Shown in pieces: positions 4,542 through 47,498 of a DNA stretch of 64,000 nucleotides. How positions within the stretch are numbered: position 1 is the first letter of the stretch; every line of letters begins with the position of its first letter. The DNA comes from Rosistilla ulvae (GTDB lineage: Bacteria > Planctomycetota > Planctomycetia > Pirellulales > Pirellulaceae): the NCBI RefSeq assembly GCF_007741475.1, contig NZ_CP036261.1, positions 62,001 through 126,000 of the forward strand. Reading direction: 5' to 3'. The notes beneath the pieces were generated by a model. That model was not told the DNA's origin. It made no database searches and was given only the letters and a program-made list of their open reading frames with translations. Position numbers and translations under genes: made by a program.

Positions 4542-7388
4542 TCACTGCGGTAATTCGGGAGCCCCGGCCCGCTGCAACGGATAACGAACGACATCTTCCG
4601 CCGCATGATTCGCCGCCGGATACTTTTCACGCGCCAACCGAATCGCTCGTCCCTTGGCGTTATCGTCCGGCTTGTAGCTTTGATGAAACTGTTGGTGCTG
4701 CGCCGACGCTTCGGAATCGCCGATCCGCTCGTACAACAGTTGCAGGTTATAGTGTGCCGTGACGTTGTCGGGATCGATCTCCAGCGTCTCTTGGAACCGT
4801 GCGATCGCATCGTTCCAGTGCGCCAACGCCTCTTCTTCGCGTTGTTGCCGCGCCCGTTGATTACCGAGTTCAAACAACGTCTGACCGGTCAAGTTGATGA
4901 CTTCGTAATCGAGGCCGAAGTCGAACCCGCGGGCTTGCATTTCGGGAGTGTTATCCTCCAAGACGCTGTTCAAATTCTGAACGGCTTCGACCAGCCGACC
5001 CTGCTGGGCGTTGATCGATCCAGACAACCAAGCCCAGCTCCAACGCGGATATCCCTTCTGGTCAGCGTAGGTTTGAGCACGCGTCAGGGCGGCGACCGCA
5101 TCATCCAAGCGGCCTTCGGCATTGTAGACGCGAGCCAGGTTTAGCGGACCATCCCAGCGATCGAAGGTCTCGACTTGCAGGAACGCTTCTTCCGCCTGCC
5201 GCAACGCATTTTTCCCCTTCAACAACTGGCCGATGCCATAATCGTTCCAGCGTTGCCAAACGGGAATCTCCGAATCCGCATTGGTCACCGATTTGTCGAC
5301 GCCCGCGACGGGGAACTCGATCTCGTCGACCGCCAACGTCGTGATCGGCAGCTCGTTGACGTAGGTCTCTCCCGGCCGATGGCCACGGATCGTCTGCCCT
5401 AGCTCTTGATTTCGATCGGCGACAAATTGCATGTACCGCTGGTCGAACTTGCGATACTGCAACTTCACCTCGACGCGAACCGTATCCTCAAGATCTTCGG
5501 GAAGGTCCAAAAGGTATTGCACCGTCTGCCCCGCACCGGGCGGAATCTGGTGGTTGTACAGCGGAGTAAAGATGTTTTCGGGATTGCGGCGATCGATCCG
5601 GTTGCCATCTTTGTCGAGCATGAAGACGTTGACAAAGTGCGACCACGGATCGACTTCTTTGGTCTCTTCGCTCAATCCTCCGCTGCGTCCGATCACGCGG
5701 TCGCCGCTGCGGACGGTGACGTCCAACCAGATCTCGTTTGAATCGGCAGTCCCCTGCGAAAACAGATGCCCCATCTTCAGCGTTCGGATCACCGTTTCCA
5801 ACAGGTACGATTTGCCTGGATCCAGCGTCGGCACGTCGGGACCCAGCGGCGCCGTCTGCGACCCATCGACCTCTCCCGAATCGCGGATCCCAAAAATGTC
5901 GACTCGCATCACCCCCTGCAGATAATCCTGATGAGCTTTGATCACCTCGTCACGATCTCTCAGCCAAGCGATCCCCGTGTTGGCCGAAGGGAACAGATGA
6001 TCGTGAACGCTCATCGCCGTCGCCGCGTCAAACCGCTGGGCTCCGAAATCGTTCGATTCGACAAGCGGCATGTGGCATCGATTGCAGTTCTCTTCCGCTT
6101 TCGGTGGGTAATAAAAACTGCGAGCCCCATGCCCCGAAACGCCGCTTAGTAGGTACGGATCGTAGTGGTTCTGGCCCCGCAAGAAGTCCTTGTAGTGGTT
6201 GAGTGCTCGCGGCAGATGGACCTTGTGGCACGTCGAACAGAACTCCGCCGTTTTGTGCAGCGGCTTCATAAACGTCTTCTTGTGAAACGCCGGCTTGGCT
6301 TTGACCAATTGCTGATTCACCCACTGCAGGACCGCGTTGTCGCTGAACGCAAACGGATAGTGCAGCGGTTCCTCGATCGTGTAGTCGGCGTTGCCGCGCG
6401 GGCTGTTGACGTGCGTGATCGCATGGCAGACCGTACAAGTGATCCCGGCGTTTGAGGTCTCGTGCCCCAGCAGGTCGAAGTTCGGATCGTCGAACGCTCC
6501 GGAAAAGAAGGGGACCGGATCGTGGCAACCGGCGCACCAACGGGCTGCTTGGACATTCCCGTCCCGCTTCATCGCGACGTTCCGGGTTTCCGAGACGCTC
6601 GCCAAATATGGCGGATTGTTGAACGAACTGAAACGATGCACGCTGTCGCTCCACTGAGCGTGCACGTCGGCGTGGCACTTGATGCAATACTGATCGTTCA
6701 TCATCGCATCGGCAGGGATAAAGTCACCGGTCGAGGTTCGCGCCAGCGATGGCTCGAAGTACTGCACGCCCGAATCGGGGCCGATCGAATTCCATTGCCG
6801 CGGGTCTTGAGTTTGAAAGGCGACAAGCGTCAAAACACCAGCCGCACCGACGCTGGTAAACGCCATTCCCGCTCGCCATTTGATCCGCGGTCCGACCAGT
6901 CGATGCAGCCAGTACAGCCATCCGGCGATCAGCGGACATGCGACGTGCATCCAGTAGACGGTGCTGCGGAGCGCCGGTTGCCGCAGGTCGATCCCCAACG
7001 CTCGGGTCAGCATCAACCCGCTGACCAACACCAGAATGCTGATCGCAAACAACGCGTAACCGATCCGCACCGCGCGGCGATTGCGGCGGTCTTTGCTGTT
7101 GATCAGATGGATCACACCAAACACGATCAACGGGACGACTAACAACAGGCCCAGCACCAGATGCGCCAAGAACATGTATTGGTAATAGTAGTCCTGGTAC
7201 GTCTCCCCCTTCACCCATTCCAGAAAGGTGATGATCGATAGGTAAGCCGAATTGGCAAACAGCAGCGAGACGATCGCCAAGACGACGTGCAGCAGTTTCC
7301 GCAGCCGCGGGCCGACGGCGCGGACCGGTTTTTTGATCGGAGCGGTTGGTTGCGGCACGCTGCCGCCGGGCGAAGTTGCTTCGGACAT
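4542..7388 (-). CDS. membrane pentahaem cytochrome c with C-terminal TPR region
   Basis: A 948-residue protein. About five hydrophobic helices occupy residues 32-192, with histidines in them (H34, H76, H94, H148, H161), like a cytochrome b561-type anchor. Then come five CXXCH haem c sites: CIKCH 235-239, CAGCH 285-289, CTVCH 318-322, CSTCH 384-388 and CNRCH 435-439. After a beta-rich middle, the last ~280 residues are TPR-like (ALRQAEEAFLQVE, LNLARVYNAEGRLDDAVAAL, DPDNVTAHYNLQLLYERIGD). Haem attachment implies the middle part faces the periplasm or paryphoplasm. It is the first gene of a two-gene operon with the FG-GAP protein. An electron-transfer role is likely; donor and acceptor cannot be told. 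Confidence 0.85.
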   Translation of the reverse strand: MSEATSPGGSVPQPTAPIKKPVRAVGPRLRKLLHVVLAIVSLLFANSAYLSIITFLEWVKGETYQDYYYQYMFLAHLVLGLLLVVPLIVFGVIHLINSKDRRNRRAVRIGYALFAISILVLVSGLMLTRALGIDLRQPALRSTVYWMHVACPLIAGWLYWLHRLVGPRIKWRAGMAFTSVGAAGVLTLVAFQTQDPRQWNSIGPDSGVQYFEPSLARTSTGDFIPADAMMNDQYCIKCHADVHAQWSDSVHRFSSFNNPPYLASVSETRNVAMKRDGNVQAARWCAGCHDPVPFFSGAFDDPNFDLLGHETSNAGITCTVCHAITHVNSPRGNADYTIEEPLHYPFAFSDNAVLQWVNQQLVKAKPAFHKKTFMKPLHKTAEFCSTCHKVHLPRALNHYKDFLRGQNHYDPYLLSGVSGHGARSFYYPPKAEENCNRCHMPLVESNDFGAQRFDAATAMSVHDHLFPSANTGIAWLRDRDEVIKAHQDYLQGVMRVDIFGIRDSGEVDGSQTAPLGPDVPTLDPGKSYLLETVIRTLKMGHLFSQGTADSNEIWLDVTVRSGDRVIGRSGGLSEETKEVDPWSHFVNVFMLDKDGNRIDRRNPENIFTPLYNHQIPPGAGQTVQYLLDLPEDLEDTVRVEVKLQYRKFDQRYMQFVADRNQELGQTIRGHRPGETYVNELPITTLAVDEIEFPVAGVDKSVTNADSEIPVWQRWNDYGIGQLLKGKNALRQAEEAFLQVETFDRWDGPLNLARVYNAEGRLDDAVAALTRAQTYADQKGYPRWSWAWLSGSINAQQGRLVEAVQNLNSVLEDNTPEMQARGFDFGLDYEVINLTGQTLFELGNQRARQQREEEALAHWNDAIARFQETLEIDPDNVTAHYNLQLLYERIGDSEASAQHQQFHQSYKPDDNAKGRAIRLAREKYPAANHAAEDVVRYPLQRAGAPELPQ

Positions 7389-35425: not shown

Positions 35426-35436
35426 CAACACGATCC

Positions 35437-35650
35437 CATACCAGCACGAAGCGCAAGCGAGTGAACCCCACCGCACCGACGTTTGGCGTTCGATCACTCG
35501 CTAGCGCGTCGTGCAGGTATGTCGATCGCCAATCACCGGTCTTCTGCAAAGCGAACAACGTTCCCATACCAGCACGAAGCGCAAGCGAGTGTTTTTTACG
35601 GCACCGACGCTTGGCTCTCGATCACTCGCTAGCGCTTCGTGCTGGTATAT
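35437..35650. repeat. 128-bp tandem palindromic repeat, two copies, left edge of island
   Basis: Units start at 35437 and 35565 (128 bp apart). Each begins CATACCAGCACGAAGCGCAA and ends in a partly complementary TCACTCGCTAGCGCGTCGTG-type arm plus a GGTATG. The second unit is cut after the hairpin. The same unit forms six copies at 50058-50785. No gene lies in 35426-35804. Confidence 0.9.
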
Positions 35651-35804
35651 CCAACGCCGCCCCCACGCCTGTGCTCACTGCGGGACCGCTGGGAGCCGCA
35701 ACGCCGTCGCAGGACATTTATATCCCCCAGCTTCCATGAGTCGCTGACTGGTTGGTGCTCGGAGAGCCGAGGTGAACCTGCGACCTGTTGACCCCCAGTC
35801 AGAC

Positions 35805-36925
35805 GTTTTAATGAGGCCGTGACTCGATGGTCACGGAAAGGCATGGATCAGGCCGGGAAAATAAAAGCAGAGCGTGCTTCAATGAGGCCGTGACTCGATG
35901 GTCACGGAAAGCTGATCGGCACCGTCGTGGTGTTGGTCTATGAAGGGGTGCTTCAATGAGGCCGTGACTCGATGGTCACGGAAAGCTGGATATACAAAGG
36001 GGCTTGAACCGATCCACTACTGCTTCAATGAGGCCGTGACTCGATGGTCACGGAAAGTCCAGGATCCCAGCGAAGTCGCCGTCGCCAGGATCGCTTCAAT
36101 GAGGCCGTGACTCGATGGTCACGGAAAGGTCATATTCTACCTGTTGCACAGAGGAACCGTTCGCAGGGCTTCAATGAGGCCGTGACTCGATGGTCACGGA
36201 AAGGTGAAGTGAGTGAGGCCATTCTGGATTTTGACCCGCTTCAATGAGGCCGTGACTCGATGGTCACGGAAAGTGGGGGTGGGCCTCCGCGGGTCTTTGT
36301 CCCGAGGACAGCTTCAATGAGGCCGTGACTCGATGGTCACGGAAAGAGAACGATTGAGCAAGCCGAGAAGCGACATGGCATGCTTCAATGAGGCCGTGAC
36401 TCGATGGTCACGGAAAGTCCACTGTGTACTTGTTAGACTTGCCGCGGATTCGGGGCTTCAATGAGGCCGTGACTCGATGGTCACGGAAAGTGTACCGGCG
36501 CACGCGTTCCGGCGTTTTGGCAAATCGCTTCAATGAGGCCGTGACTCGATGGTCACGGAAAGGCTGGCGGTGTGGATGTGCGGGACAACTTCTTGGCCGC
36601 TTCAATGAGGCCGTGACTCGATGGTCACGGAAAGACTTCGCTACGCTTCGCCGCCTGCTTCCGCTCCGCCTGCTTCAATGAGGCCGTGACTCGATGGTCA
36701 CGGAAAGGAGGATTTCACCTCGGCCGCTGAGTCGTCAGCAAGCCGCGCTTCAATGAGGCCGTGACTCGATGGTCACGGAAAGCCGAAGCAACCGCCGCCA
36801 ACACGGCGAGGATGGCAGGCTTCAATGAGGCCGTGACTCGATGGTCACGGAAAGGCCGCCAACACGGCGAGGATGGCAGCAAGGAAACCGCTTCAATGAG
36901 GCCGTGACTCGATGGTCACGGAAAG
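35805..36925 (-). CRISPR. CRISPR array, 16 repeats of 36 nt and 15 spacers (type I-G)
   Basis: Repeats start at 35805, 35876, 35950, 36022, 36093, 36168, 36238, 36311, 36382, 36455, 36527, 36599, 36672, 36747, 36819 and 36890. Each has the dyad CCGTGAC-N6-GTCACGG. Spacers are 34-39 nt. Fifteen repeats are identical; the one at 35805 has two changes in its first five bases, marking the old (trailer) end. The leader is therefore on the cas side and transcription is on the minus strand, so that repeats end CCTCATTGAAGC and crRNAs would carry an ATTGAAGC 5' handle. The two newest spacers overlap in their source sequence. I saw no spacer match elsewhere in the window. Confidence 0.98.
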
Positions 36926-37132
36926 AGCCCAGGGGGCTGAGTGTACAATTTCTGCGGCTGCAGCGGAAGTCTGCGAGCGGTTGTCGGGTATGGGAGCTGA
37001 CGGGAGGTGGGAGTGCATTGAGTTGGTTCCTTGTACTGGGATTTGCTCGGTTTTTGGACTGCGAGCGGGGGGCCGGTTTTTCACGGCACCTGGCCGCTCG
37101 CAGTTCTCAAGGTCCAAAAAAATGAAGTCGAC
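36926..37132 (-). promoter_or_regulatory. CRISPR leader between cas4-cas1 and the array
   Basis: These 207 nt lie between the newest repeat and the cas4-cas1 stop, the expected place for leader, array promoter and integration signals on the minus strand. The sequence is G-rich on the plus strand with no repeat and no credible gene. I cannot point to a specific promoter box. Confidence 0.65.
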
Positions 37133-38929
37133 TCAGCGGGTTACGAAGACCGGAAACGTCTCGATCTCGCCGCGGACCATCTGCGCCATCAGCCGCGTTT
37201 GGATTTCCAGCAGCCGTCGATAGCTGACTCGATATTCGAACAACGGATGGGTTACCAACTGATCCATCCGCAATTCATAGGCGTGAAAAAACGCTTTGCG
37301 GCCACTGTCCGAAAGGAAGACTCCGCGGCCCCCAGGCACAAAGTGCTCCGGCGTTAGCATCCGGTTGTTGACTGCGGAGAGGACGACCGATTCGGCAATC
37401 AGCGGGCGAAACGGTTCCATCAAATCCAACGCCAATGCGGGACGGCCGGGCCGCGGCAGATGATAGAAACCGAGGTAGGGATCCAGTCCCACGGCGGCGG
37501 CTACGACGGTCAGGTCTTTTGCTAACAAGCTGTAGGCCAGGGAGAGCATCGCATTGATCGCGTCGCGGGGCGGTCGTCGGTTGCGGCCGTTAAAATCGAA
37601 GCTCCATCGTGGCGGTGCGGCGATCGCTGCGTCGGGATCAGCCGGCGCGTCGCCTGGTTTAAGCATCCCCGAAAAGGCACCGAAGTAGAGTCGGGCGGCG
37701 GTCCCTTCGACACCTAACAATTGATCGGCGCGAGTGACGTTGTGCAATCGCGCGGCGATCCGTTTCAGTTCGGAAATGATCTCCGTCGGCGGCGATATAT
37801 GGTTTCGCATCAGCAGCACGCGGCAGTTGCGAATCTTGCCTTCGATCAACAGTTTAGCAATCGCAAGGCAGCGGGCGGGGTCGTCTGCGAGGCGGAACTG
37901 CTCGCGGCGCAGCAGGATGTTTTTCAACCCGGTGCCTTGCAGCATGCCGTGAAAATAGCCGCGCCGAGAGAACATCACCATCGGCACTTCCAATGCGCAC
38001 AGCGTCTGGATCGCCTGAGTCGACAGTTGGATGTTGCCGAACAGATTCACTTGGTTCAGTTCCCTCAGTCGCACCTCCTGCAACAATTTTCCCTCTTGCT
38101 TGACCTGCAACACCTCACTCTTTTTGCCCACATACAGCCCTTGAGTGGTCAGGTAGAGCGGTCGTTGTTCATCGCGGGCCGTGGTTGGTAAGCGAGTTGC
38201 CGCGTCGCGGTTGGGATTGCGGTTGCTGCAGCGGTTCGTCTCGTCGGGTAGACAGATCGACGACAGCGAGCAGTGCGGGCATTTGGGGCTGTCGACCAGC
38301 GGCGGCGGTGGCATCGGCAGTTCACGCACGTGCCGTGCTTGGTCGACCGCTTGGCGAGTCAGTTGGATCAGGGCGTCGTCGATCTCGATCTCGACGCGTT
38401 GGCGGGTCTCGTTGAAGTAGAGGATCCCACGGTCACACTGAAACCCGTTTTCGCGCAGGACCAGAGCTTGCAGGCAGATCTGCACGCGTTCGGGAGGCCA
38501 GGCGCCGATCTGTCCGTCGACGCCACGCCGCGGTCGGCCGCGCTTGTAATCAACAGGCGTCGCCAGGTTCCCCGTCGCTTCGACTAGATCCAGCTTGGCG
38601 ATCACGCCCAGTTCATCGCTGGCCAGTGTCACGCTGCGGGCGTGAACCGGAACCGGTTGTGCTGCGGGATCAATTTCCCTTTCGGGAGAATCGGTTTCTT
38701 CATCGGTGGTCTCTTGTCCATCGACGAGATCGATCAAAGCCAACGGATCGACACGGGCGTCGACTCGGCGGTGGACGACATCGCCGTCGGCGGTGAAGCG
38801 GTTGCGTTGAAAGAGTCCCTCGACATGCATCAGGTAGAACAAACGAGGGCAATAGACAGCTTCGTTGATCATCCGAGCCGGCAGGTATTCGGCGTTTTTG
38901 ATTGGGGCGGCGAATGTGGCGGTGGTCAT
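37133..38929 (-). CDS. cas4-cas1: Cas4-Cas1 fusion (adaptation, type I-G)
   Basis: A 598-residue protein from ATG 38929; GTG 38959 would add ten residues. Cas4 part (about 1-230): Cys27 in VYCPRLFYL and C217, C220, C226 in CPHCSLSSIC give four iron-sulfur ligands, with RecB-type residues His53, Asp114 and VDYKRG (127-131). Cas1 part (from ~255): LYLTTQGLYVGKKSE, RELNQVNLFGN, MFSRRGYFHGML, then the helical nuclease lobe with AINAMLSLAYSLL, GLDPYLGFYHLPRPGRPAL and DLMEPFRPLIAE. It trims and orients prespacers and integrates them with Cas2. Cas4-Cas1 fusion is characteristic of type I-G (I-U) systems. It is the last gene before the leader. Confidence 0.93.
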   Translation of the reverse strand: MTTATFAAPIKNAEYLPARMINEAVYCPRLFYLMHVEGLFQRNRFTADGDVVHRRVDARVDPLALIDLVDGQETTDEETDSPEREIDPAAQPVPVHARSVTLASDELGVIAKLDLVEATGNLATPVDYKRGRPRRGVDGQIGAWPPERVQICLQALVLRENGFQCDRGILYFNETRQRVEIEIDDALIQLTRQAVDQARHVRELPMPPPPLVDSPKCPHCSLSSICLPDETNRCSNRNPNRDAATRLPTTARDEQRPLYLTTQGLYVGKKSEVLQVKQEGKLLQEVRLRELNQVNLFGNIQLSTQAIQTLCALEVPMVMFSRRGYFHGMLQGTGLKNILLRREQFRLADDPARCLAIAKLLIEGKIRNCRVLLMRNHISPPTEIISELKRIAARLHNVTRADQLLGVEGTAARLYFGAFSGMLKPGDAPADPDAAIAAPPRWSFDFNGRNRRPPRDAINAMLSLAYSLLAKDLTVVAAAVGLDPYLGFYHLPRPGRPALALDLMEPFRPLIAESVVLSAVNNRMLTPEHFVPGGRGVFLSDSGRKAFFHAYELRMDQLVTHPLFEYRVSYRRLLEIQTRLMAQMVRGEIETFPVFVTR

Positions 38930-39180
38930 GTTGGGTCTCGCAGGTGATTGAAGGAACACAGAACATCCGTGCGGGAGTTTTTTGTAAGCCTCCTTTCATC
39001 GTTTCCAAACGCATTTTGGGGAGAATCGAACTTACGTCGGCCCGCCCCGAAAAACTCGCTAAACGCTCGTTTTTCGACCCTCCCTGCTCGCGCCGGGCGG
39101 GTGAAATTGTGGGGGATTCAGTGCGACTTAACGATTGCGCGCCCTTTGCGTGGGAAAGTGCAATCGCTGATTTCGATCGC

Positions 39181-39471
39181 TCAAACGATTAAGCAAGGGC
39201 TGGCCAGGGCGGTGTAGGGTTGGCCCAAAGCTTCGATTACTCGCTCGCCTCGCCCGGTGGCGGGGCCGAGATCGACCAACAACACTTGGTCGTTGGAATG
39301 ATGGATGATCTGGCTCAGTTGGTCCTTGAGCGTGATCAGATCGTGTTGGCTCAGCTGGCATTCGAAGACCGAATACTGCAGATGGTCGCCCCAGTTCCGC
39401 ATCGTCTTGTGGACTTTGCGGAGCCGTTTATCGTCGCGGATGTCGTAGGTGACGAGAAAGATATTTCGCAT
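39181..39471 (-). CDS. cas2: Cas2
   Basis: A 96-residue protein with the Cas2 ferredoxin-like start FLVTYDIRDDKRLRKVHKTM (Asp at the tip of strand 1), LQYSVFECQLSQHDLITLKD and the DQVLLVDLG strand. It forms the dimeric core of the Cas1-Cas2 integrase. It lies between cas3 (138 nt upstream) and cas4-cas1 (251 nt downstream from the ATG chosen there); both gaps are non-coding and unusually long for a cas operon, so a separate adaptation promoter is possible. Confidence 0.93.
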   Translation of the reverse strand: MRNIFLVTYDIRDDKRLRKVHKTMRNWGDHLQYSVFECQLSQHDLITLKDQLSQIIHHSNDQVLLVDLGPATGRGERVIEALGQPYTALASPCLIV

Positions 39472-39608
39472 GGAGAGTGCTCAGGGAGTGGCAGAAAACA
39501 AAACGAGCAGCCTCCATGCGCCGCCGGGTCCATTCGTGAAACACGAACGACCTCGGCGGATGCATTGCTTGTTTTCAACCAGATTGTGAAAGAACAGGAA
39601 GAGTTGAA

Positions 39609-42600
39609 CTAAAACGCCAACGCGGTCGCTGGGGTTAGGTTCGGTGTTTTGCCAACGAGAATTCTTTGACTGCGGCAGACCTTTCCAATACCCAAGGGAA
39701 GCAGTTCGTCGTGTTGAAGGTTGTCTAGCTGAAGTTGCTGGAGTGAAAGCAAGGTCGATACGACATCCATCGAGGCGGGAGTGGTCCACAATGGCCAAGT
39801 CATAAAGGTGTTGGAAGCACGCAGCCCGCGGAATCCCACCGTTCTCAATCTGTCTCCTACAGGGATCGATTGAAAGAGAGGCCATGCTTCCAACGCCAGT
39901 CGGTTCGCACCGATCATGCCGCCGTTGGACTTGCGCGTTGGGTCACCACTGGGGGTGTGCCATTGGTAGGCATGGCGTCGATCTTCTCGTGGTTCAAGAT
40001 GCAACGAGACACCAGCAATTGGATCGGCATAGTCCCAAGGTTCAAAGAGTGTGCGTGAGAGGTGGGACGCGGCGGTTACGTCTAACAGGCCGCGGATGGC
40101 GATCGAATGATAATCGCGTCGCGATGTCTGCAACTGGGAAATGGCCTCGGGCGATGCCGAATCGGATCCGCTGCAGCTGGTCCAATCGGCGTCGCGTCGA
40201 TCGGATAGGGAAGCAGCTTTCGCGATCTGAAGATACAGCGAGCGTCTCTCACTCGCATTTTCGCATTTTGCCAAAAGGCTGGGGATGCGGAGCGCGGGAT
40301 GTTGCAAGTCTTCACTGGTCAACTGCTGAAGGAGCGCGTCGAGCACGGTGTCACTGTCGAGCGACAGCTCGTCAAGTGATCCAATCATCGGTCGCCATCC
40401 TCCATTCTGAGAGATCCAAGCGAACTGAAGCGGTCTTTCAGGAAACGCTCGGCTGAGCGTGGCGAATGTTCCAAGAGCCGCTAGGAATCCTAACGGCCGA
40501 GTGCCATCGATTCCCGCTAAGACAAGCTCGGTTCGTTTTTTGGGAGCTGGCCGACTATCGTCACGCTTCGTAGTGGGGAAATCGAGTTTCTGTGGCTCCC
40601 CGTTGCCGGGCTTCGCACTGGCGGACCAGTCGGCAAGTCGCAAGATCGACTCCAGGAATGCGAGGCCCCACCATCCGAATCGACGATTCAGCTTCCAAAA
40701 CTGTCCAGCGATACCCGAATCGATTTGATGTGCGGGTGTCCAGTCGGCGCGCTGTTGATGCGAGATCGCGGCGCCGCCAAACGGCTTGAGACTAAATCCG
40801 GGCAAGGTTTCGTCGACAGCGATGGGAGCCAGTGGCCGCGCGAATCCATGATGCGATGCGATCAAATGGCTCATCAACGTCATGTCGCAGGTTTCCTTGT
40901 GTTCGAATTGCTGCAACAGATCGACGCTCAACATTTCATGTCGAAAGCCGGTGTGTAGTTCGCTGCGCCCGCGACCTCCAAGCTGATCCGATTTGGCCCA
41001 CAGCGTTCGTTGCATGTAGGCAACCGCAACGGGTTTGCCCAGCAGCATCGCCTGGAATCGCGGGTCGGATTTACCAACATCATGTAGCTTGGCCGCAGCG
41101 TGGATCGATGCCTCCAGGTCGCTCAGCGGCAAAGCGTTGGTTAACCGCAACGACTCGGCCCAGACGTCCGCTAGATGTTGGTGGAGCGACAGTTTGGATG
41201 TCTCGAGCAGCGTGTCGTCGTCATCGAAGCTCGCCATGGGCAGCGGAGGCATCCCGCCGATTCGTTCGGTTTGAAGTCGCGTCGTCCAGGCGATACCACC
41301 TGGATAGCGTTCCAGTTTTTGAACTTCCTGGCGATCGATCAATCGAGCCAGTTTGGGGAATGAGTTGAGATTCTTGGGGGCGTCGGAATCGAGCGTCAGT
41401 GGTTCTTGCAAAGACTCGCGAACTTCGTCGATGATCGATTCTTTCGAGAATCCGACATCGGATGTTCCACTGGCCTTGAGACGCGTCAACAGCGCATCAA
41501 ACAAGGGGCTTGTTTCTGGATCGGGAATCAGCTTTTTGTGGGCTCGCAAGATGTAACGGGCACGGCTCTGTGAAAAGGCAGCTTCTGCAACATCGATCGA
41601 CGCCAACGGCTTGTCGGTCTGTCTGGGGGATTTCTCCTCCGTTGAATCTCGCGGCTCAGTTGGCGATTGTTGCCAAGGATCGGAAATCGGTTCTGCGGGC
41701 GCTCCCGGTACGTGACCAAACTGGCTCCAGCCCCCAAATTCTGCCGGAATCACAATCGTTGCATTGGGGGGAATTCTGTCGAGGTTGCGAGATTTGCTGA
41801 CGAGGAAACTGGAACTGTGGTTGTCGCCCCGATCTGTCGTTTGGCCATTGCTACGCTGGGCTTGGATTCCCTGCCAAACCAACAGACACCGATATCGAGC
41901 GTTATCCGAAGTGGCGGTCGAATTCCTTTTTTCCGCCTCGGGCTCTGCTTCTCCTAGGACATCGCTCGTCGAGTCGGGTTGGTCTTCTCCGCGAATCCAT
42001 TGTTTGAGTGCATGTAGAGGCACGCTCAACAACTCTGCTGAAGAAGGCGGGCATGCGGCCACCGCTTCGGTCCAAAGTTGTTGGTGTTTGTCGTAGCCTT
42101 GGTCGTTGTTTGGCTTCGCTGGAAATTCCAAATCCGCTCGCCAACAAACTCGAACTTCCGCCAATGTGTTGTCGGTTCCGTGAAGGAACATGGCGACATC
42201 GGGTTCAGGAATTGGACGCGGACTGGTTTGGCAGAGCATGTCCAAGTGGGCCGGCATGAGAACGGGAGCATTGGGAGCCGGTGCGGCTAGGTCTAGATCG
42301 GTCGGATTCGCCTGAATCAGCGCTTCGAATGCCTTAATGCCAAAGTCAATTTCTTGTTTTTCATCGACTAAGGTATTAAGCCAGTGCCATGTTCGGGCCA
42401 ATGCGTTTCCATAAACCGGATCGTACGGCTTTTCGTCGTTCAGTTTTGAAATCGCGGGAATATCGTGTTCCGCGGCAACAATTACTCCACGGCAGGTCGA
42501 TGCGTTGCCCAGTCGATTCAGTCGACCAAATCGTTGCCGAAGCGCGTCGAGCGATGCACACTGAGTGACCATGCCGTCAAAGTCGAGGTCGGCACCCACT

Positions 42601-43790
42601 TCGATGCATTGCGTCGCGACCACGAATTGGGGATGGTGTTCATCTTGACTGGCACCGGAACCGAAACGTTGCTGTAGTTCGTTTGTCAGCGAATCGCGGT
42701 CGCATGGTCGCATTCGGCCGATCATCAATCGACTCTGATCATGTTTCTTTTGGGCAAGCAAGTGATGAGTTGCTTTTGCGATGGCAACACGATTCACCAC
42801 GATGGCAATTTTTTTGCACCCCGATTCGGTTAACTTCATCGCCTGTTCGACAAGTTGCTTCGCGAGTTTATCGGCAAGTACCTTGCCTTTGGCACCTGGA
42901 GCGTCGGTCAACTCAACTGGCTTTTTGCATTCATGCCTACGTGCCAGCACTTTGTCAACTTTGTAGTCGGACTCTTCGTCGAGGGTGAGGAGCGTTCGAT
43001 CTGACTGGTCGCTCGGTGGCGTTGCTGTCATTTGCACCAGAGAAAACGGGAGATCGACAGGTTGTTCGAACCAGTCGTTGCCGCGATAGCGTTGGATTGC
43101 TTCTACCGTTTGGCTGAACGGGCGCGAGCAATGGGCTTCGTCCAGAATGACCAGACTGTCGCACGCGGTCATTGCAGCATGGATTGGCAGGTTGCGATCC
43201 GATACGCCGTAACCTCGGAACAGCATGCGTGACCCGACTTGGTCGACAGTGCTTGTCAGAACGGTTGGCTGCAATGGTGAGCGAACCCAAGCGTCGTCTC
43301 GGTAGATTCCACCTCGCAGTTCAAAGCAGTCCAACGGCGGTGCAGTTGGATCGTTGGCCAGCATTCTCAACCAGGTTGCCACGCGCAAGAGAATGTCGTT
43401 TGGGTTGGCAGTTTTGTCGTTTGCAGCATCCCACAGTTTTTCGGCCATCTTGCGGGTTTGGCGATAGGCTTCGTTGACGACAATGCGGCGGTCGACAACG
43501 AAGAAAATTCGGCGCGGAGCGGTGCGAATGCCGTTGGGGTAATTCGCTTCGCAAGCCTGGAACGCCAACGCAAAGACGGCGATGTCGATAGCCGCAGTCT
43601 TTCCGCTAGAGGTTGGCAGCTTTAGATAGTTGGGCCATTGCCCGCGACAGGCCGCTGTGGCAAGTCGTTTTTGCCATGCGAATGGCATGTATCCGTGGAT
43701 TGCTTCGTAAAATGCCGAGAAGTCTTCGATGGCCAACGGTTTTGTTTGCGCGATCATTGTTGGAAGGTTGGGCATAATCTGGTACCGCAT
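39609..43790 (-). CDS. cas3: Cas3 helicase-HD nuclease with C-terminal Cas8/Csb3-like domain
   Basis: A 1393-residue protein if started at ATG 43790 (frame open to 43859). Residue numbers use that start. Helicase: Walker A LPTSSGKT 58-65, DEAH 217-220, motif VI in QCASLDALRQRFGRLNRLG. HD domain is C-terminal to the helicase, as in GSU0051-type Cas3: KLHDVGK (His903, Asp904) and ASHHG (980-981). From about 1086 to the end a further ~308 residues begin ELVLAGIDGTRPLGFLAALG and contain EDRRHAYQWHTPSGDP and GANRLALEAWPLF, words I associate with Csx17/Csb3 (Cas8-like) subunits of type I-G. So one chain may combine target recognition and destruction. Fusion assignment is inference; helicase and HD are certain. 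Confidence 0.9.
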   Translation of the reverse strand: MRYQIMPNLPTMIAQTKPLAIEDFSAFYEAIHGYMPFAWQKRLATAACRGQWPNYLKLPTSSGKTAAIDIAVFALAFQACEANYPNGIRTAPRRIFFVVDRRIVVNEAYRQTRKMAEKLWDAANDKTANPNDILLRVATWLRMLANDPTAPPLDCFELRGGIYRDDAWVRSPLQPTVLTSTVDQVGSRMLFRGYGVSDRNLPIHAAMTACDSLVILDEAHCSRPFSQTVEAIQRYRGNDWFEQPVDLPFSLVQMTATPPSDQSDRTLLTLDEESDYKVDKVLARRHECKKPVELTDAPGAKGKVLADKLAKQLVEQAMKLTESGCKKIAIVVNRVAIAKATHHLLAQKKHDQSRLMIGRMRPCDRDSLTNELQQRFGSGASQDEHHPQFVVATQCIEVGADLDFDGMVTQCASLDALRQRFGRLNRLGNASTCRGVIVAAEHDIPAISKLNDEKPYDPVYGNALARTWHWLNTLVDEKQEIDFGIKAFEALIQANPTDLDLAAPAPNAPVLMPAHLDMLCQTSPRPIPEPDVAMFLHGTDNTLAEVRVCWRADLEFPAKPNNDQGYDKHQQLWTEAVAACPPSSAELLSVPLHALKQWIRGEDQPDSTSDVLGEAEPEAEKRNSTATSDNARYRCLLVWQGIQAQRSNGQTTDRGDNHSSSFLVSKSRNLDRIPPNATIVIPAEFGGWSQFGHVPGAPAEPISDPWQQSPTEPRDSTEEKSPRQTDKPLASIDVAEAAFSQSRARYILRAHKKLIPDPETSPLFDALLTRLKASGTSDVGFSKESIIDEVRESLQEPLTLDSDAPKNLNSFPKLARLIDRQEVQKLERYPGGIAWTTRLQTERIGGMPPLPMASFDDDDTLLETSKLSLHQHLADVWAESLRLTNALPLSDLEASIHAAAKLHDVGKSDPRFQAMLLGKPVAVAYMQRTLWAKSDQLGGRGRSELHTGFRHEMLSVDLLQQFEHKETCDMTLMSHLIASHHGFARPLAPIAVDETLPGFSLKPFGGAAISHQQRADWTPAHQIDSGIAGQFWKLNRRFGWWGLAFLESILRLADWSASAKPGNGEPQKLDFPTTKRDDSRPAPKKRTELVLAGIDGTRPLGFLAALGTFATLSRAFPERPLQFAWISQNGGWRPMIGSLDELSLDSDTVLDALLQQLTSEDLQHPALRIPSLLAKCENASERRSLYLQIAKAASLSDRRDADWTSCSGSDSASPEAISQLQTSRRDYHSIAIRGLLDVTAASHLSRTLFEPWDYADPIAGVSLHLEPREDRRHAYQWHTPSGDPTRKSNGGMIGANRLALEAWPLFQSIPVGDRLRTVGFRGLRASNTFMTWPLWTTPASMDVVSTLLSLQQLQLDNLQHDELLPLGIGKVCRSQRILVGKTPNLTPATALAF

Positions 43791-43910
43791 TTGGGAGGTG
43801 GTTCGAAGATGACGTGATCTGGCATCCCGTCGGGATGCGTGTGGGGTGGGGCTTGGCAACCGGAGGTGGCGCTGCGCTTACCTCCGGCTAATTGCTTAAA
43901 CGCCGCCGGG

Positions 43911-44066
43911 GTGTTGGTTGGATGACTGCGAAGCAGTCGCAGCGATTAGCCGGAGGTAATCGTAGTGCCACCACCGGAACACGTCGGTGTGTTGGTTGGA
44001 TGACTGCGAAGCAGTCGCAGCGATTAGCCGGTGGTAAGCGTAGCGCCACCACCGGAACACGAACCA
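43911..44066. repeat. two tandem 78-bp REP-like units beside the transposase
   Basis: Units at 43911-43988 and 43989-44066 share GTGTTGGTTGGATGACTGCG, AAGCAGTCGCAGCGATTAGC and a GCCACCACCGGAACACG end. Each contains small dyads (GACTGCGAAGCAGTC; CCGGTGG ... CCACCGG-type). A related hairpin, CCGGAGG ... CCTCCGG, precedes at 43860-43888. These lie between the cas3 start and the REP-associated transposase and look like its substrate repeats. Confidence 0.8.
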
Positions 44067-44100
44067 CCGATGAGACCGCATCCCGCAGGGATGCCAGCGT

Positions 44101-44544
44101 CTACTCCAAATATTGAGGATCATATTCAACTCCTGCCCGTTCTAACATGAAGATCAACTCGTTGCGGAAACTTTGCTTGCGATGATGTTCGCGCTGACTT
44201 GCGATGTATTTCTGCACATCCTTTCGCGCGGTCGCGCTCACGGAAAAGGCTCCGTATCCTTCTTGCCAGGCAAACGCTTCCACTCCAAATTCTTGGTGGA
44301 CCCACTTCGACGATTCCTTTTTCAGTTCGCGCATCAGGTCGGCGATGCGATGGATCGGCTTAAATCCAACCAGCAGGTGAACATGGTCTTCCACGCCGCC
44401 TATCCCTTGCGGGAAGGCGCCCAGGCCAGCCAGAGTGCCTCCGAGGTATTCATGCATTCGAACCTCCCAGTTGGGGGCGATCATCGGTTTCCGGTTTTTC
44501 GTGCTGAAGACGATGTGGCAGTGAAGGCTGGCATAGGTCGACAT
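44101..44544 (-). mobile_element. REP-associated tyrosine transposase (RAYT, IS200-like Y1) gene inside the cas operon
   Basis: A 147-residue Y1 transposase: LHCHIVFSTKNRKP, DHVHLLVGF (HUH metal motif His-Val-His), IHRIADLMRELKKESSKW, and a catalytic Tyr in VQKYIASQREHHRKQSF. Single-domain size and lack of IS ends fit the RAYT group that moves REP hairpins. It begins 3 nt after the csb2 stop, with GAGGTG overlapping that stop, so it is likely translated from the cas mRNA. REP-like units lie downstream of it (43860-44066) and upstream of the operon (47680-47850). The protein looks intact. Confidence 0.88.
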
Positions 44545-44547
44545 GAT

Positions 44548-46206
44548 TCACCTCGATGTGTCGTGGATCGGTTTACAAAGCCCATAACCACTAAATCTAC
44601 CAGCGCCAAGGATCACGGGGCCTGTCACTTGATCGTGAAATTCAATTCTCGCATGCACCTGTGGACGGGTGGGCTTCCCCGCCCGCGAGGGCATTGGCAT
44701 GAACCCGTCTCCAAGTCGTGTTGTCGCTTCGCGTTCCGAGTCGCCACGCAGGCGACGCCGTTTCGACACGGCCCGCGGAACTCCGCGATGCCAGGAAGTT
44801 GTATCGATCTCCACGTTGCTGGGTGTCGGTAGACCCGCCCGCTTGCACGCCAATGCGATCGTTTCGGCAGCTTCGGCGTTCCATCGCATTCGGTCAGTCG
44901 AACGGTCCGACTTGGGGTAGCGATCCAGGACGACTGGTGTGACGCTCGCCCACGCGGAGCTTGGTCGGGTCCAGGTGGCGTTTTGAAGTGTCTTTGCAGC
45001 TGTCGCCTCCGATTCCATGCACAACGTCCAGACACCCAAGTTCCCGAGCTTCAGTTCAATGGGGCGTTCGTCATCGTTCTTGTCTAACAGCAAGCCACGC
45101 AGCGCCTCGCCGCGTGTTTCTGGGGCGATCTGTTTTGGCAATGCGATGGCAAGTCCCATCAGGTGTCCATCACCATATTGCCCACCCGCATAAGGGAGCG
45201 CAACGAATGCAGCGTGAGGATCGGTCGTCGCATTGCCGTTGGCTTCGTGACCGCTGAGCCACACCGGCGGAGGCTGAATTTCGCAGTTGGCCATGGCCGC
45301 GTCGCGCAACCGTTTGGTCAACGCAAGCGAATCTTGAACGCCTAGGTTGGGGCCATCGAGCTTGCGAAACACAAGCAGTTGGGAATCAAAATGCTCGCCT
45401 TCGACGACTTTCCGCCTATTGGTGGGACCGGCGTCGCGGGCATACCCCTGCCATTGTCCGAGCACTGGCGGCGTCGGTTCTGGCGGACGCAAAGACGATT
45501 TGAAGGGCATGCCAAACTCCAATTCAAAAGTCGCCTTTGCCTTGCGCTTTTGCGTTCCTTTGGACGATGAGATCGTCTCAGCCAAATCAGCGAAGCGGTC
45601 GATTCGATCAGCCCCACACGCGATGCGCAGACGTTCGAACTCCCCTTCCCCCGCGATCCGCAACTGAACCTCGGCCCCACGTCGGGTCGGTTCCCAACGC
45701 GGGCGGTTTGGCGTGCCAGCATCGATCTGAGCCCAGGCTCTTACGAGTGACGACGAATGCCCGACGCGGATGACGTTGCTGCAAATCCGCTGCAAGCCAT
45801 CGAGATGGGAAGCGAAGTGCTCAACATCGTGCCAAACAAATGTCACCGTTGCGTCGTCGGGAATCATCGTAGGAAAGGCTCGCTCCTGTTTCGACCGACT
45901 CAATCCCGGTGCGGTTTGCAGCAACGACTTGCTTGCCGTCACCTTGTCGTTGACTGGGACATAGACGGCGTGACGTGAGCGTCTGTTTCCATCACTCGCA
46001 AAAATATCTGGCGGAGGCAATTGTTCGAGCCACTGCAGCGCAGCAACGTCCGCGGCATCTTCCCCCATCTCAAAACAGGTCGCTGCCATCGCCATGAACA
46101 ACCGCCCCGGATGCGGTGGCCATTCCGCCGTTTCACGGTTTGCAACGTCCGCTGCGACGTAGCGTCCGGTGAGCAATTCGACGTCGATCGAAAACGTATT
46201 CATCAC
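44548..46206 (-). CDS. csb2: Csb2 (Cas5-Cas6 fused type, GSU0054 family)
   Basis: A 552-residue protein. The N-terminal FSIDVELLTGRYVAADV ... EWPPHPGRLFMAM is the GSU0054/Csb2 signature, a Cas5-like RRM. The C-terminal part RPQVHARIEFHDQ ... GPVILGAGRFSGYGLCKP has the Cas6-type Gly-rich loop. In type I-G this protein serves as Cas5 and as the crRNA-processing nuclease; candidate catalytic His residues are in DTTSWHRG and PQVHARIEFH. The start overlaps the csb1 stop by 4 nt (ATGA). Its end remains typical for the family, so the neighbouring transposase did not truncate it. Confidence 0.92.
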   Translation of the reverse strand: MMNTFSIDVELLTGRYVAADVANRETAEWPPHPGRLFMAMAATCFEMGEDAADVAALQWLEQLPPPDIFASDGNRRSRHAVYVPVNDKVTASKSLLQTAPGLSRSKQERAFPTMIPDDATVTFVWHDVEHFASHLDGLQRICSNVIRVGHSSSLVRAWAQIDAGTPNRPRWEPTRRGAEVQLRIAGEGEFERLRIACGADRIDRFADLAETISSSKGTQKRKAKATFELEFGMPFKSSLRPPEPTPPVLGQWQGYARDAGPTNRRKVVEGEHFDSQLLVFRKLDGPNLGVQDSLALTKRLRDAAMANCEIQPPPVWLSGHEANGNATTDPHAAFVALPYAGGQYGDGHLMGLAIALPKQIAPETRGEALRGLLLDKNDDERPIELKLGNLGVWTLCMESEATAAKTLQNATWTRPSSAWASVTPVVLDRYPKSDRSTDRMRWNAEAAETIALACKRAGLPTPSNVEIDTTSWHRGVPRAVSKRRRLRGDSEREATTRLGDGFMPMPSRAGKPTRPQVHARIEFHDQVTGPVILGAGRFSGYGLCKPIHDTSR

Positions 46207-47498
46207 TCCCCTCCATCTTCAGCACCGCTGGTGACCGCCAACTCCTGACTCTTGCGAACCAAGTCGACAAGCTTCTGCGCTGGCTTCAAAACGAGAGGTT
46301 CGGTGTTCCAAGGCAGTTGGGCTTCGACAGCTTTTGCGATCGATTCCTCTAGCAGCGCAACGGCTTCGTCAGCCGAAATCATAAATTGTTCAGCCGATTC
46401 GCCAGGCTGAGCCAACAACTCCCAAGTAGGCTTTTCTGTTGGCCATAACAGGCATCGCGACCGCAGATCGAGACCTCGTTCGCTCGCTAAGGCAGCGCTG
46501 CAAACTCCCAAGGCTGCGAGCGCGGTTTGTGCAACCAAATTTGAATCTGCGTCCGTCTTGGACGATCCGTGCGGTGGGAACCGCAAACGCCGCAGGGCGG
46601 GGAACGAAAGTACGGTTGTCTGTTCTGCATAAGCGATCGTCACTCCACCCGCCAGATAGATTCGTCGGTCAGCGTCTCCAATGGGATCTCTGCCTGTCTC
46701 CGAAAGGGAGGGGGCGATATTTCCATGGTTGACTTCCGACGGCTTACCATCTTTCCCGGCCAGCCTTGGCTTCTTCTTATCCATTCGCGCTTGGTTTGCA
46801 TCGAGCGTCCAGTCGCCGTTTTTATCTTCGTATACCGGTCCCGATTTCAACTGAATCGCAAGCGGGTCGATTCGGCTGCTCGTCTTGACACCCAGTTCTG
46901 CATCGATGCCGATGATCTCCGATACCAGTGCTCTTTGGAATTTCACTCCTAGACCTCCTTTGGGCCCGGTGGAATCCCAGATCCCAAAGATCAAAGCTGT
47001 TGGGCAGAGCTCAAGCAGCGGTGTGGCGTTGCGGAGTGTCGCCTGACTGAGTTTTTTGCCGAGCGTGGTCGCCCGAAACGCGACGCCATCGAGTTCGCTG
47101 TCGCGCAGGATCGCGTCTGCGACACGATGTGGTGCCTGCAAGCTTGTAACGCGGCCAATCGGTTCGTACAGTCCAGCATCTTCTGAACCGGGCTCGACGA
47201 TCGGGATCTCGCCAAAGTCGACTTCGACAACGGGGATTTTGATACGTTCATCGTCCACTGCATCTTGAAGTGCTTCTTCAAATCGGTTTGCCTGACTTTG
47301 AACCGAGTCCATCAGAACGCATCGCACAGGCTGGTCTCGCCCCGGTACGCGCCGATACTCCATCGCATAGACGGCTCCCGCATAGGTTGGCGGAAAGACC
47401 TTGTCTCCCTCGCCACCCGCAGGTTGCAGTTTGGTTCGGCAGCGCAGTGCTGCACCGGTCTTTACGGCATCTTTTAGTTTTGAATAGTCAAATGGCAT
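46203..47498 (-). CDS. csb1: Csb1 (Cas7, GSU0053 family)
   Basis: A 431-residue protein, first gene of the operon, with AGGAG 9 nt before ATG 47498. Family words: FDYSKLKDAVKTGAALRCRTKLQPAGGEGDKVFPPTYAG, VLMDSVQSQANRFEEAL, SLQAPHRVADAILRDSE, CPTALIFGIWDSTGPKGG and KFQRALVSEIIG, all hallmarks of the type I-U/I-G Csb1 family (broken here into motifs along residues 3-190). Csb1 is the Cas7 backbone that coats the crRNA spacer. Stop and csb2 start overlap (ATGA), giving coupled translation and the Cas7-Cas5 stoichiometry. Confidence 0.92.
   Translation of the reverse strand: MPFDYSKLKDAVKTGAALRCRTKLQPAGGEGDKVFPPTYAGAVYAMEYRRVPGRDQPVRCVLMDSVQSQANRFEEALQDAVDDERIKIPVVEVDFGEIPIVEPGSEDAGLYEPIGRVTSLQAPHRVADAILRDSELDGVAFRATTLGKKLSQATLRNATPLLELCPTALIFGIWDSTGPKGGLGVKFQRALVSEIIGIDAELGVKTSSRIDPLAIQLKSGPVYEDKNGDWTLDANQARMDKKKPRLAGKDGKPSEVNHGNIAPSLSETGRDPIGDADRRIYLAGGVTIAYAEQTTVLSFPALRRLRFPPHGSSKTDADSNLVAQTALAALGVCSAALASERGLDLRSRCLLWPTEKPTWELLAQPGESAEQFMISADEAVALLEESIAKAVEAQLPWNTEPLVLKPAQKLVDLVRKSQELAVTSGAEDGGE

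Follow-up and report, generated by a model that had tools for sequence, protein, structure and literature searches.

A type I-G CRISPR array occupies positions 35805–36925 of the window, by which we mean the whole stretch of 64 000 nucleotides that was analysed. The array consists of 16 repeats of 36 nt each and 15 spacers of 34–39 nt, and its crRNA direction is that of the minus strand. The cas genes lie beside it at 37133–47498, also on the minus strand. They encode a Cas4/Cas1 fusion (37133–38959), which is likely to be both PAM selector and integrase, Cas2 (39181–39471), a protein of 1416 residues in which Cas3, with its HD domain placed after the helicase, is fused to Cas8g (39609–43859; PADLOC assigns residues 42–1083 to Cas3g and 1110–1414 to Cas8g), Csb2 (Cas5-Cas6; 44548–46206) and Csb1 (Cas7; 46203–47498). 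The Cas4/1 protein matches that of PDB entry 7mi4 with an E-value of 2.5e-143 and aligns with it over residues 25–608 of 608, and the cysteines of the YCPR and KCPxC motifs and of the IC that follows are common to the two proteins.

Judged by its sequence, this gene set is of type I-G. It includes csb2 (a Cas5-Cas6 fusion) and csb1 (Cas7), a Cas4-Cas1 fusion with Cas2, and Cas3 with the Cas8g large subunit, the latter two as one fused protein; a TTN PAM accompanies these genes (TTG at spacer S2 by overlap and TTT at spacer S9 by a prophage match, with mixed data from the family). The same Csb2, Cas7, Cas3 and Cas8g effector and TTN PAM are described for the I-G system of Thioalkalivibrio sulfidiphilus in the available portion of PMC9638904, and the Cas4/1 fusion is shared with the system of PDB entry 7mi4 (I-G, formerly I-U). 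In contrast to these two systems, Cas3 and Cas8g form a single 1416-residue protein in the window and a gene for a Y1 (IS200-like) transposase (44101–44544) is located between csb2 and cas3. Neighbouring Cas3 and Cas8 matches in the same frame suggest that the Cas3-Cas8g fusion may also be present in two related loci from two other genera (L066 and L060); in the remaining related loci searched the Cas3 match was weaker or absent and no such Cas8 match was found at an E-value of 1e-8. The Y1 transposase had no match at this E-value among the 37 related loci searched.

We note three further features of these loci. Paired inverted repeats beside the array (35430–35660) are part of a REP-like element; one 26-mer taken from it has 147 matches in the genome at up to three mismatches (78 forward and 69 reverse), compared with 0 for a reversed-pattern control; the Y1 transposase at 44101–44544 might be the transposase behind these repeats. 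At locus L139 of genome G037 the Cas4/1 match is split across frames (4854–5159 and 5168–5764) with a gap in the protein between the two parts, and the gene may be broken. At locus L057 of genome G051 a partial Cas4/1 match lies beside a block of tandem repeats, the unit of which resembles a CRISPR repeat and the 'spacers' of which are nearly identical.

Overlapping spacers and array polarity

The two spacers at the high-coordinate end of the array, S1 (35 nt, 36855–36889, minus strand) and S2 (36 nt, 36783–36818, minus strand), overlap in sequence. On the plus strand the last 25 nt of S2 (36794–36818) and the first 25 nt of S1 (36855–36879) are 100% identical (family D5), so that the merged source of the two spacers is 46 nt in length. 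In the crRNA orientation S1 consists of 10 private bases followed by the shared 25, and S2 of the shared 25 followed by 11 private bases; S1 starts 10 nt before S2 starts and ends 11 nt before S2 ends. The triplet immediately before S2 in this orientation, which is supplied by S1, is TTG, and the flanking triplet in the opposite orientation is ACC. An earlier note on this DNA had reported the shared 25 nt, the merged 46 nt, an offset of about 11 nt and both of these triplets, and our measurements reproduce each of them, with the offset resolved into 10 and 11 nt. The shared 25-mer has no further copy in the 7.48 Mb genome at up to three mismatches and is therefore not a common motif; chance is excluded as the origin of an exact 25 nt identity between two neighbouring spacers.

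Since the PAM depends on the direction in which the array is read, its polarity was tested. The terminal repeat at the low-coordinate end is degenerate, with GTTTTAATG in place of GCTTCAATG, as is expected of the old end of an array. For the opposite end, the array of the window was compared with arrays from same-family genomes whose repeats belong to its class (crRNA-strand end ATTGAAGC); after removal of L057, which is made of tandem repeats and is not a CRISPR, the set comprised 28 loci with 29 array calls, two of them in L062, and 920 spacer positions. Leader motifs were counted in the 21 arrays for which each flank reaches 70 nt or more, the other eight of the 29 calls having shorter flanks. 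In 17 of the 21 a CTCGCAA-like motif precedes the first repeat by 51 or 52 nt, and in one it is found on the trailer side (within 100 nt, either strand), counts which refer to a motif picked after inspection of these same flanks. The window is among the 17, with CTCGCAG at 36971–36977 on the minus strand, where it begins 52 nt ahead of the first repeat; the 16 others include L054, L060, L064 and L146. Because the motif keeps a constant distance from the repeats and is largely confined to one side, the leader is assigned to the high-coordinate end; the motif might serve to dock the integration complex. It follows that S1, the leader-proximal spacer, and S2 were the last to be acquired. The degenerate distal repeat and the shared leader motif thus both agree with the minus-strand crRNA and the recent capture of these two spacers that had been proposed earlier.

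The protospacer-adjacent motif

A TTN motif is known for type I-G (PMC9638904, in the part available), and it was with this PAM that the TTG before S2 had been equated. TTN is not universal for the type: the accessible text of PMC8482600 gives TAC, TAN, TTN, AAN and TTC for different genera. A direct read-out of the PAM is informative because TTN is not the only I-G PAM and, given this variation between genera, such a read-out is useful lineage by lineage. In the Methanosarcina barkeri I-G system, which also has a Cas4/1 fusion, the cut adjoins a GAA PAM strand, equivalent to TTC on the opposite strand, according to the available section of PMC10504553; unlike the present analysis, that work is biochemical and concerns an archaeal system, and the section does not mention overlapping spacers.

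Independent support comes from spacer S9 (36274–36310, minus strand). When the array was searched against 149 same-family genomes, 58 gave a match, and all of these were repeat-like or weak except that of S9, the one strong single-spacer match, to a genome of the same genus (G006; E-value 2.7e-8). The match covers the full length of the spacer with 34 of 37 bases identical. In the crRNA orientation the protospacer is flanked on its 5' side by GCGCGTTT, with TTT at the PAM position, and on its 3' side by CCC. It lies in a prophage that carries a terminase small subunit, a DnaD-like helicase loader, DnaB and an integrase ending at a tRNA-Arg; a 645-residue protein of this prophage has relatives in two of 241 genomes, G006 among them, and none in viral_contigs. 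A 20-mer of S9 had no match in viral_contigs, and a 19-mer was found in two contigs of genome_contigs (Saccharopolyspora and Pseudarthrobacter) which agree with S9 at 24 and 25 of 37 bases and were judged to be chance matches.

The dinucleotide TT occupies positions −3 and −2 at a background rate of 6.1% in the searched DNA, at which the probability that both S2 and S9 would show it by chance is approximately 0.004. TTN as the PAM of this array, which the earlier note had put forward, is in our view well supported by the TTG of S2 and the TTT of S9, and is shared in part by other arrays of the family. The remaining matches of window spacers, with BLAST E-values between 0.007 and 4, are weak and taken as chance, and most of them adjoin triplets other than TTN: S1 with a Rhizobium plasmid (28/35, GCC) and with locus L133 (27/35, CGC), S4 with an Amycolatopsis plasmid (30/37, GGA), S11 with L038 (29/39, GAT) and S12 with L040 (27/35, GGC). 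Among 46 fetched loci, excluding the array itself, no window spacer other than S9 had a match above 27/35.

To extend the comparison to related arrays, the 920 spacers were matched to 2.37 Mb of sequence in 146 loci, most of which were selected for the vicinity of terminase, portal or capsid genes and cover part of the places listed for these genes; spacers shorter than 33 nt were excluded from the mismatch distributions. Spacers of at least 33 nt gave 11 matches at up to eight mismatches, compared with none for one reversed and two shuffled spacer sets. The S1 match in L133 was not counted towards the PAM, since an 18-mer of S1/S2 had served to retrieve that locus; two spacers each had two target loci, and counting each spacer once gave n = 8. 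TTN is present at exactly −3 for three of the eight (the TTT of S9, a TTC and a TTG; P = 0.010), or for two of seven when S9 is left out (P = 0.06). The other five triplets are TCG, TCG, CGG, CTT and ATT; one of the two TCG flanks has TTC one base further out, and the ATT belongs to a match inside the window itself. By a looser test, selected post hoc, TT falls anywhere within −4 to −1 in six of the eight against a background of 15% (P = 0.00025), and the opposite-side control, NAA, was found in none of the eight. Examples include a spacer of L062 with its target in L176 (TTC), one of L056 with targets in L184 and L188 (TTG and TTC, respectively) and, as a weaker match with nine mismatches, one of L067 with its target in L205 (TTC). 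These data lean towards TTN and suggest it as the PAM across arrays of the family, without being proof on their own.

Two whole arrays from relatives, used as queries, gave what appeared to be repeat matches, one of which was confirmed as repeat base by base. A spacer of genome G023 (L054:4911–4948) is self-targeting: 37 of its 38 bases are matched in that same genome (L153:4713), with the flank TTCG and at a distance of some 15 kb from a gene for terminase.

The overlap thus yields the PAM of this CRISPR system without recourse to any phage genome, with S9 as independent support, and the value obtained is one already known for type I-G. We regard the locus as ordinary I-G biology with a built-in PAM read-out. 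The same logic was applied in an archaeon, where contigs assembled from overlapping new spacers gave an invariant CCN PAM (PMC3468723, available in part); in contrast to the single pair described here, that study sequenced many newly inserted spacers after the uptake of foreign DNA.

Origin of the spacer pair

The merged 46 nt had been proposed as a query for finding the invader, and no credible protospacer was found for it in the phage, plasmid, viral or genome collections. The exact 25-mer was absent from both viral_contigs and genome_contigs and, at up to three mismatches in 241 same-family genomes, occurred in the window's own genome alone. The array matched ten phage and 19 plasmid records with E-values of 0.3 to 4 only; seven of these 29 were fetched, and the best agreement over the 46 nt was 33/46, in a Rhizobium plasmid, with 28/46 in the others, which we judged to be chance. 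Three 18-mers occurred in one, two and two contigs of viral_contigs, with 31, 23, 25, 26 and 23 of the 46 bases matching, and were likewise rejected as chance matches. One crRNA-strand reading frame of the 46 nt source gives GFLAAILAVLAAVAS, the membrane-helix-like appearance of which makes it plausible that the source was a coding region; the synonymous-codon pattern of this frame had no match in viral_contigs. As the searches of these collections brought up no protospacer for S1 or S2, the single source for both is one that we infer.

The interpretation that we favour, with a probability of roughly 0.85, is that Cas4/1-Cas2 would have taken two prespacers that overlapped on the same strand of one invader, or of its close relatives, both protospacers having been selected beside a TTN PAM that the Cas4 moiety would read. 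Both would then have been inserted next to the leader, one directly after the other or nearly so. The PAM of S2 would be the TTG that is visible through the coverage by S1, and that of S1 would lie outside the recorded 46 nt. One source, a minus-strand crRNA and a TTN PAM are thus retained from the interpretation offered in the earlier note.

Its further suggestion of primed or hotspot acquisition is conjecture. Several type I systems are known to show priming, and the capture of S2 could have led the adaptation complex to return to this short region, with S1 taken 10 nt away; that the two spacers are neighbours in the array, come from the same strand and are offset by 10 nt fits this. We surveyed all pairs among the 920 spacers sharing at least 12 nt, and of the 63 pairs found none but the one in the window is a perfect shifted overlap between spacers of a single array; independent picks from one phage would suffice to produce it. 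For a 40 kb phage the probability of a detectable overlap is approximately 6e-4 per pair, and if the two members of each of the 889 adjacent pairs derived from one such phage 0.53 overlaps would be expected with a shift of up to 24 nt, or 0.25 with a shift of up to 11 nt. The observed count is therefore close to chance if neighbouring spacers often share one phage, and priming is not needed. Nor did the collections searched yield a source genome that could show other spacers clustering around S1 and S2, and we consider priming unlikely. A variant in which the fused Cas3-Cas8g would supply Cas4/1-Cas2 from the exact position of its latest cut, with the next spacer starting about one helical turn from the one before it, is a speculation to which we give slightly less weight still.

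Alternatively, the pair could reflect a single DNA end and not two separate PAM choices, if a long prespacer underwent trimming on two occasions or a degraded fragment was captured in two copies. The nearly equal end offsets of 10 and 11 nt would suit such an origin, but S2 starts exactly after TTG, as predicted by PAM choice, and no feature of the sequence demands a shared fragment, which leaves it improbable. Least credible, with a very small probability, is the generation of one spacer from the other by recombination or duplication within the array. Duplication within arrays does occur, as shown by an exact duplicate spacer in L056 (at 1037 and 1253), but repeat-mediated exchange leaves spacers whole, whereas here the shared segment is the suffix of one spacer and the prefix of the other, at unequal distances from the repeats, and each spacer has bases of its own (10 and 11) between intact flanking repeats.

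Besides this duplicate, the same-array, same-strand pairs from the survey include a same-register pair in L065 with 31 of 36 bases matching, a pair in L062 that shares a 16 nt stretch and is otherwise diverged, and an imperfect end overlap of 14/18 in L058. A perfect 13 nt end overlap between spacers of two genomes (L062 and L149) was also observed and may be due to chance.
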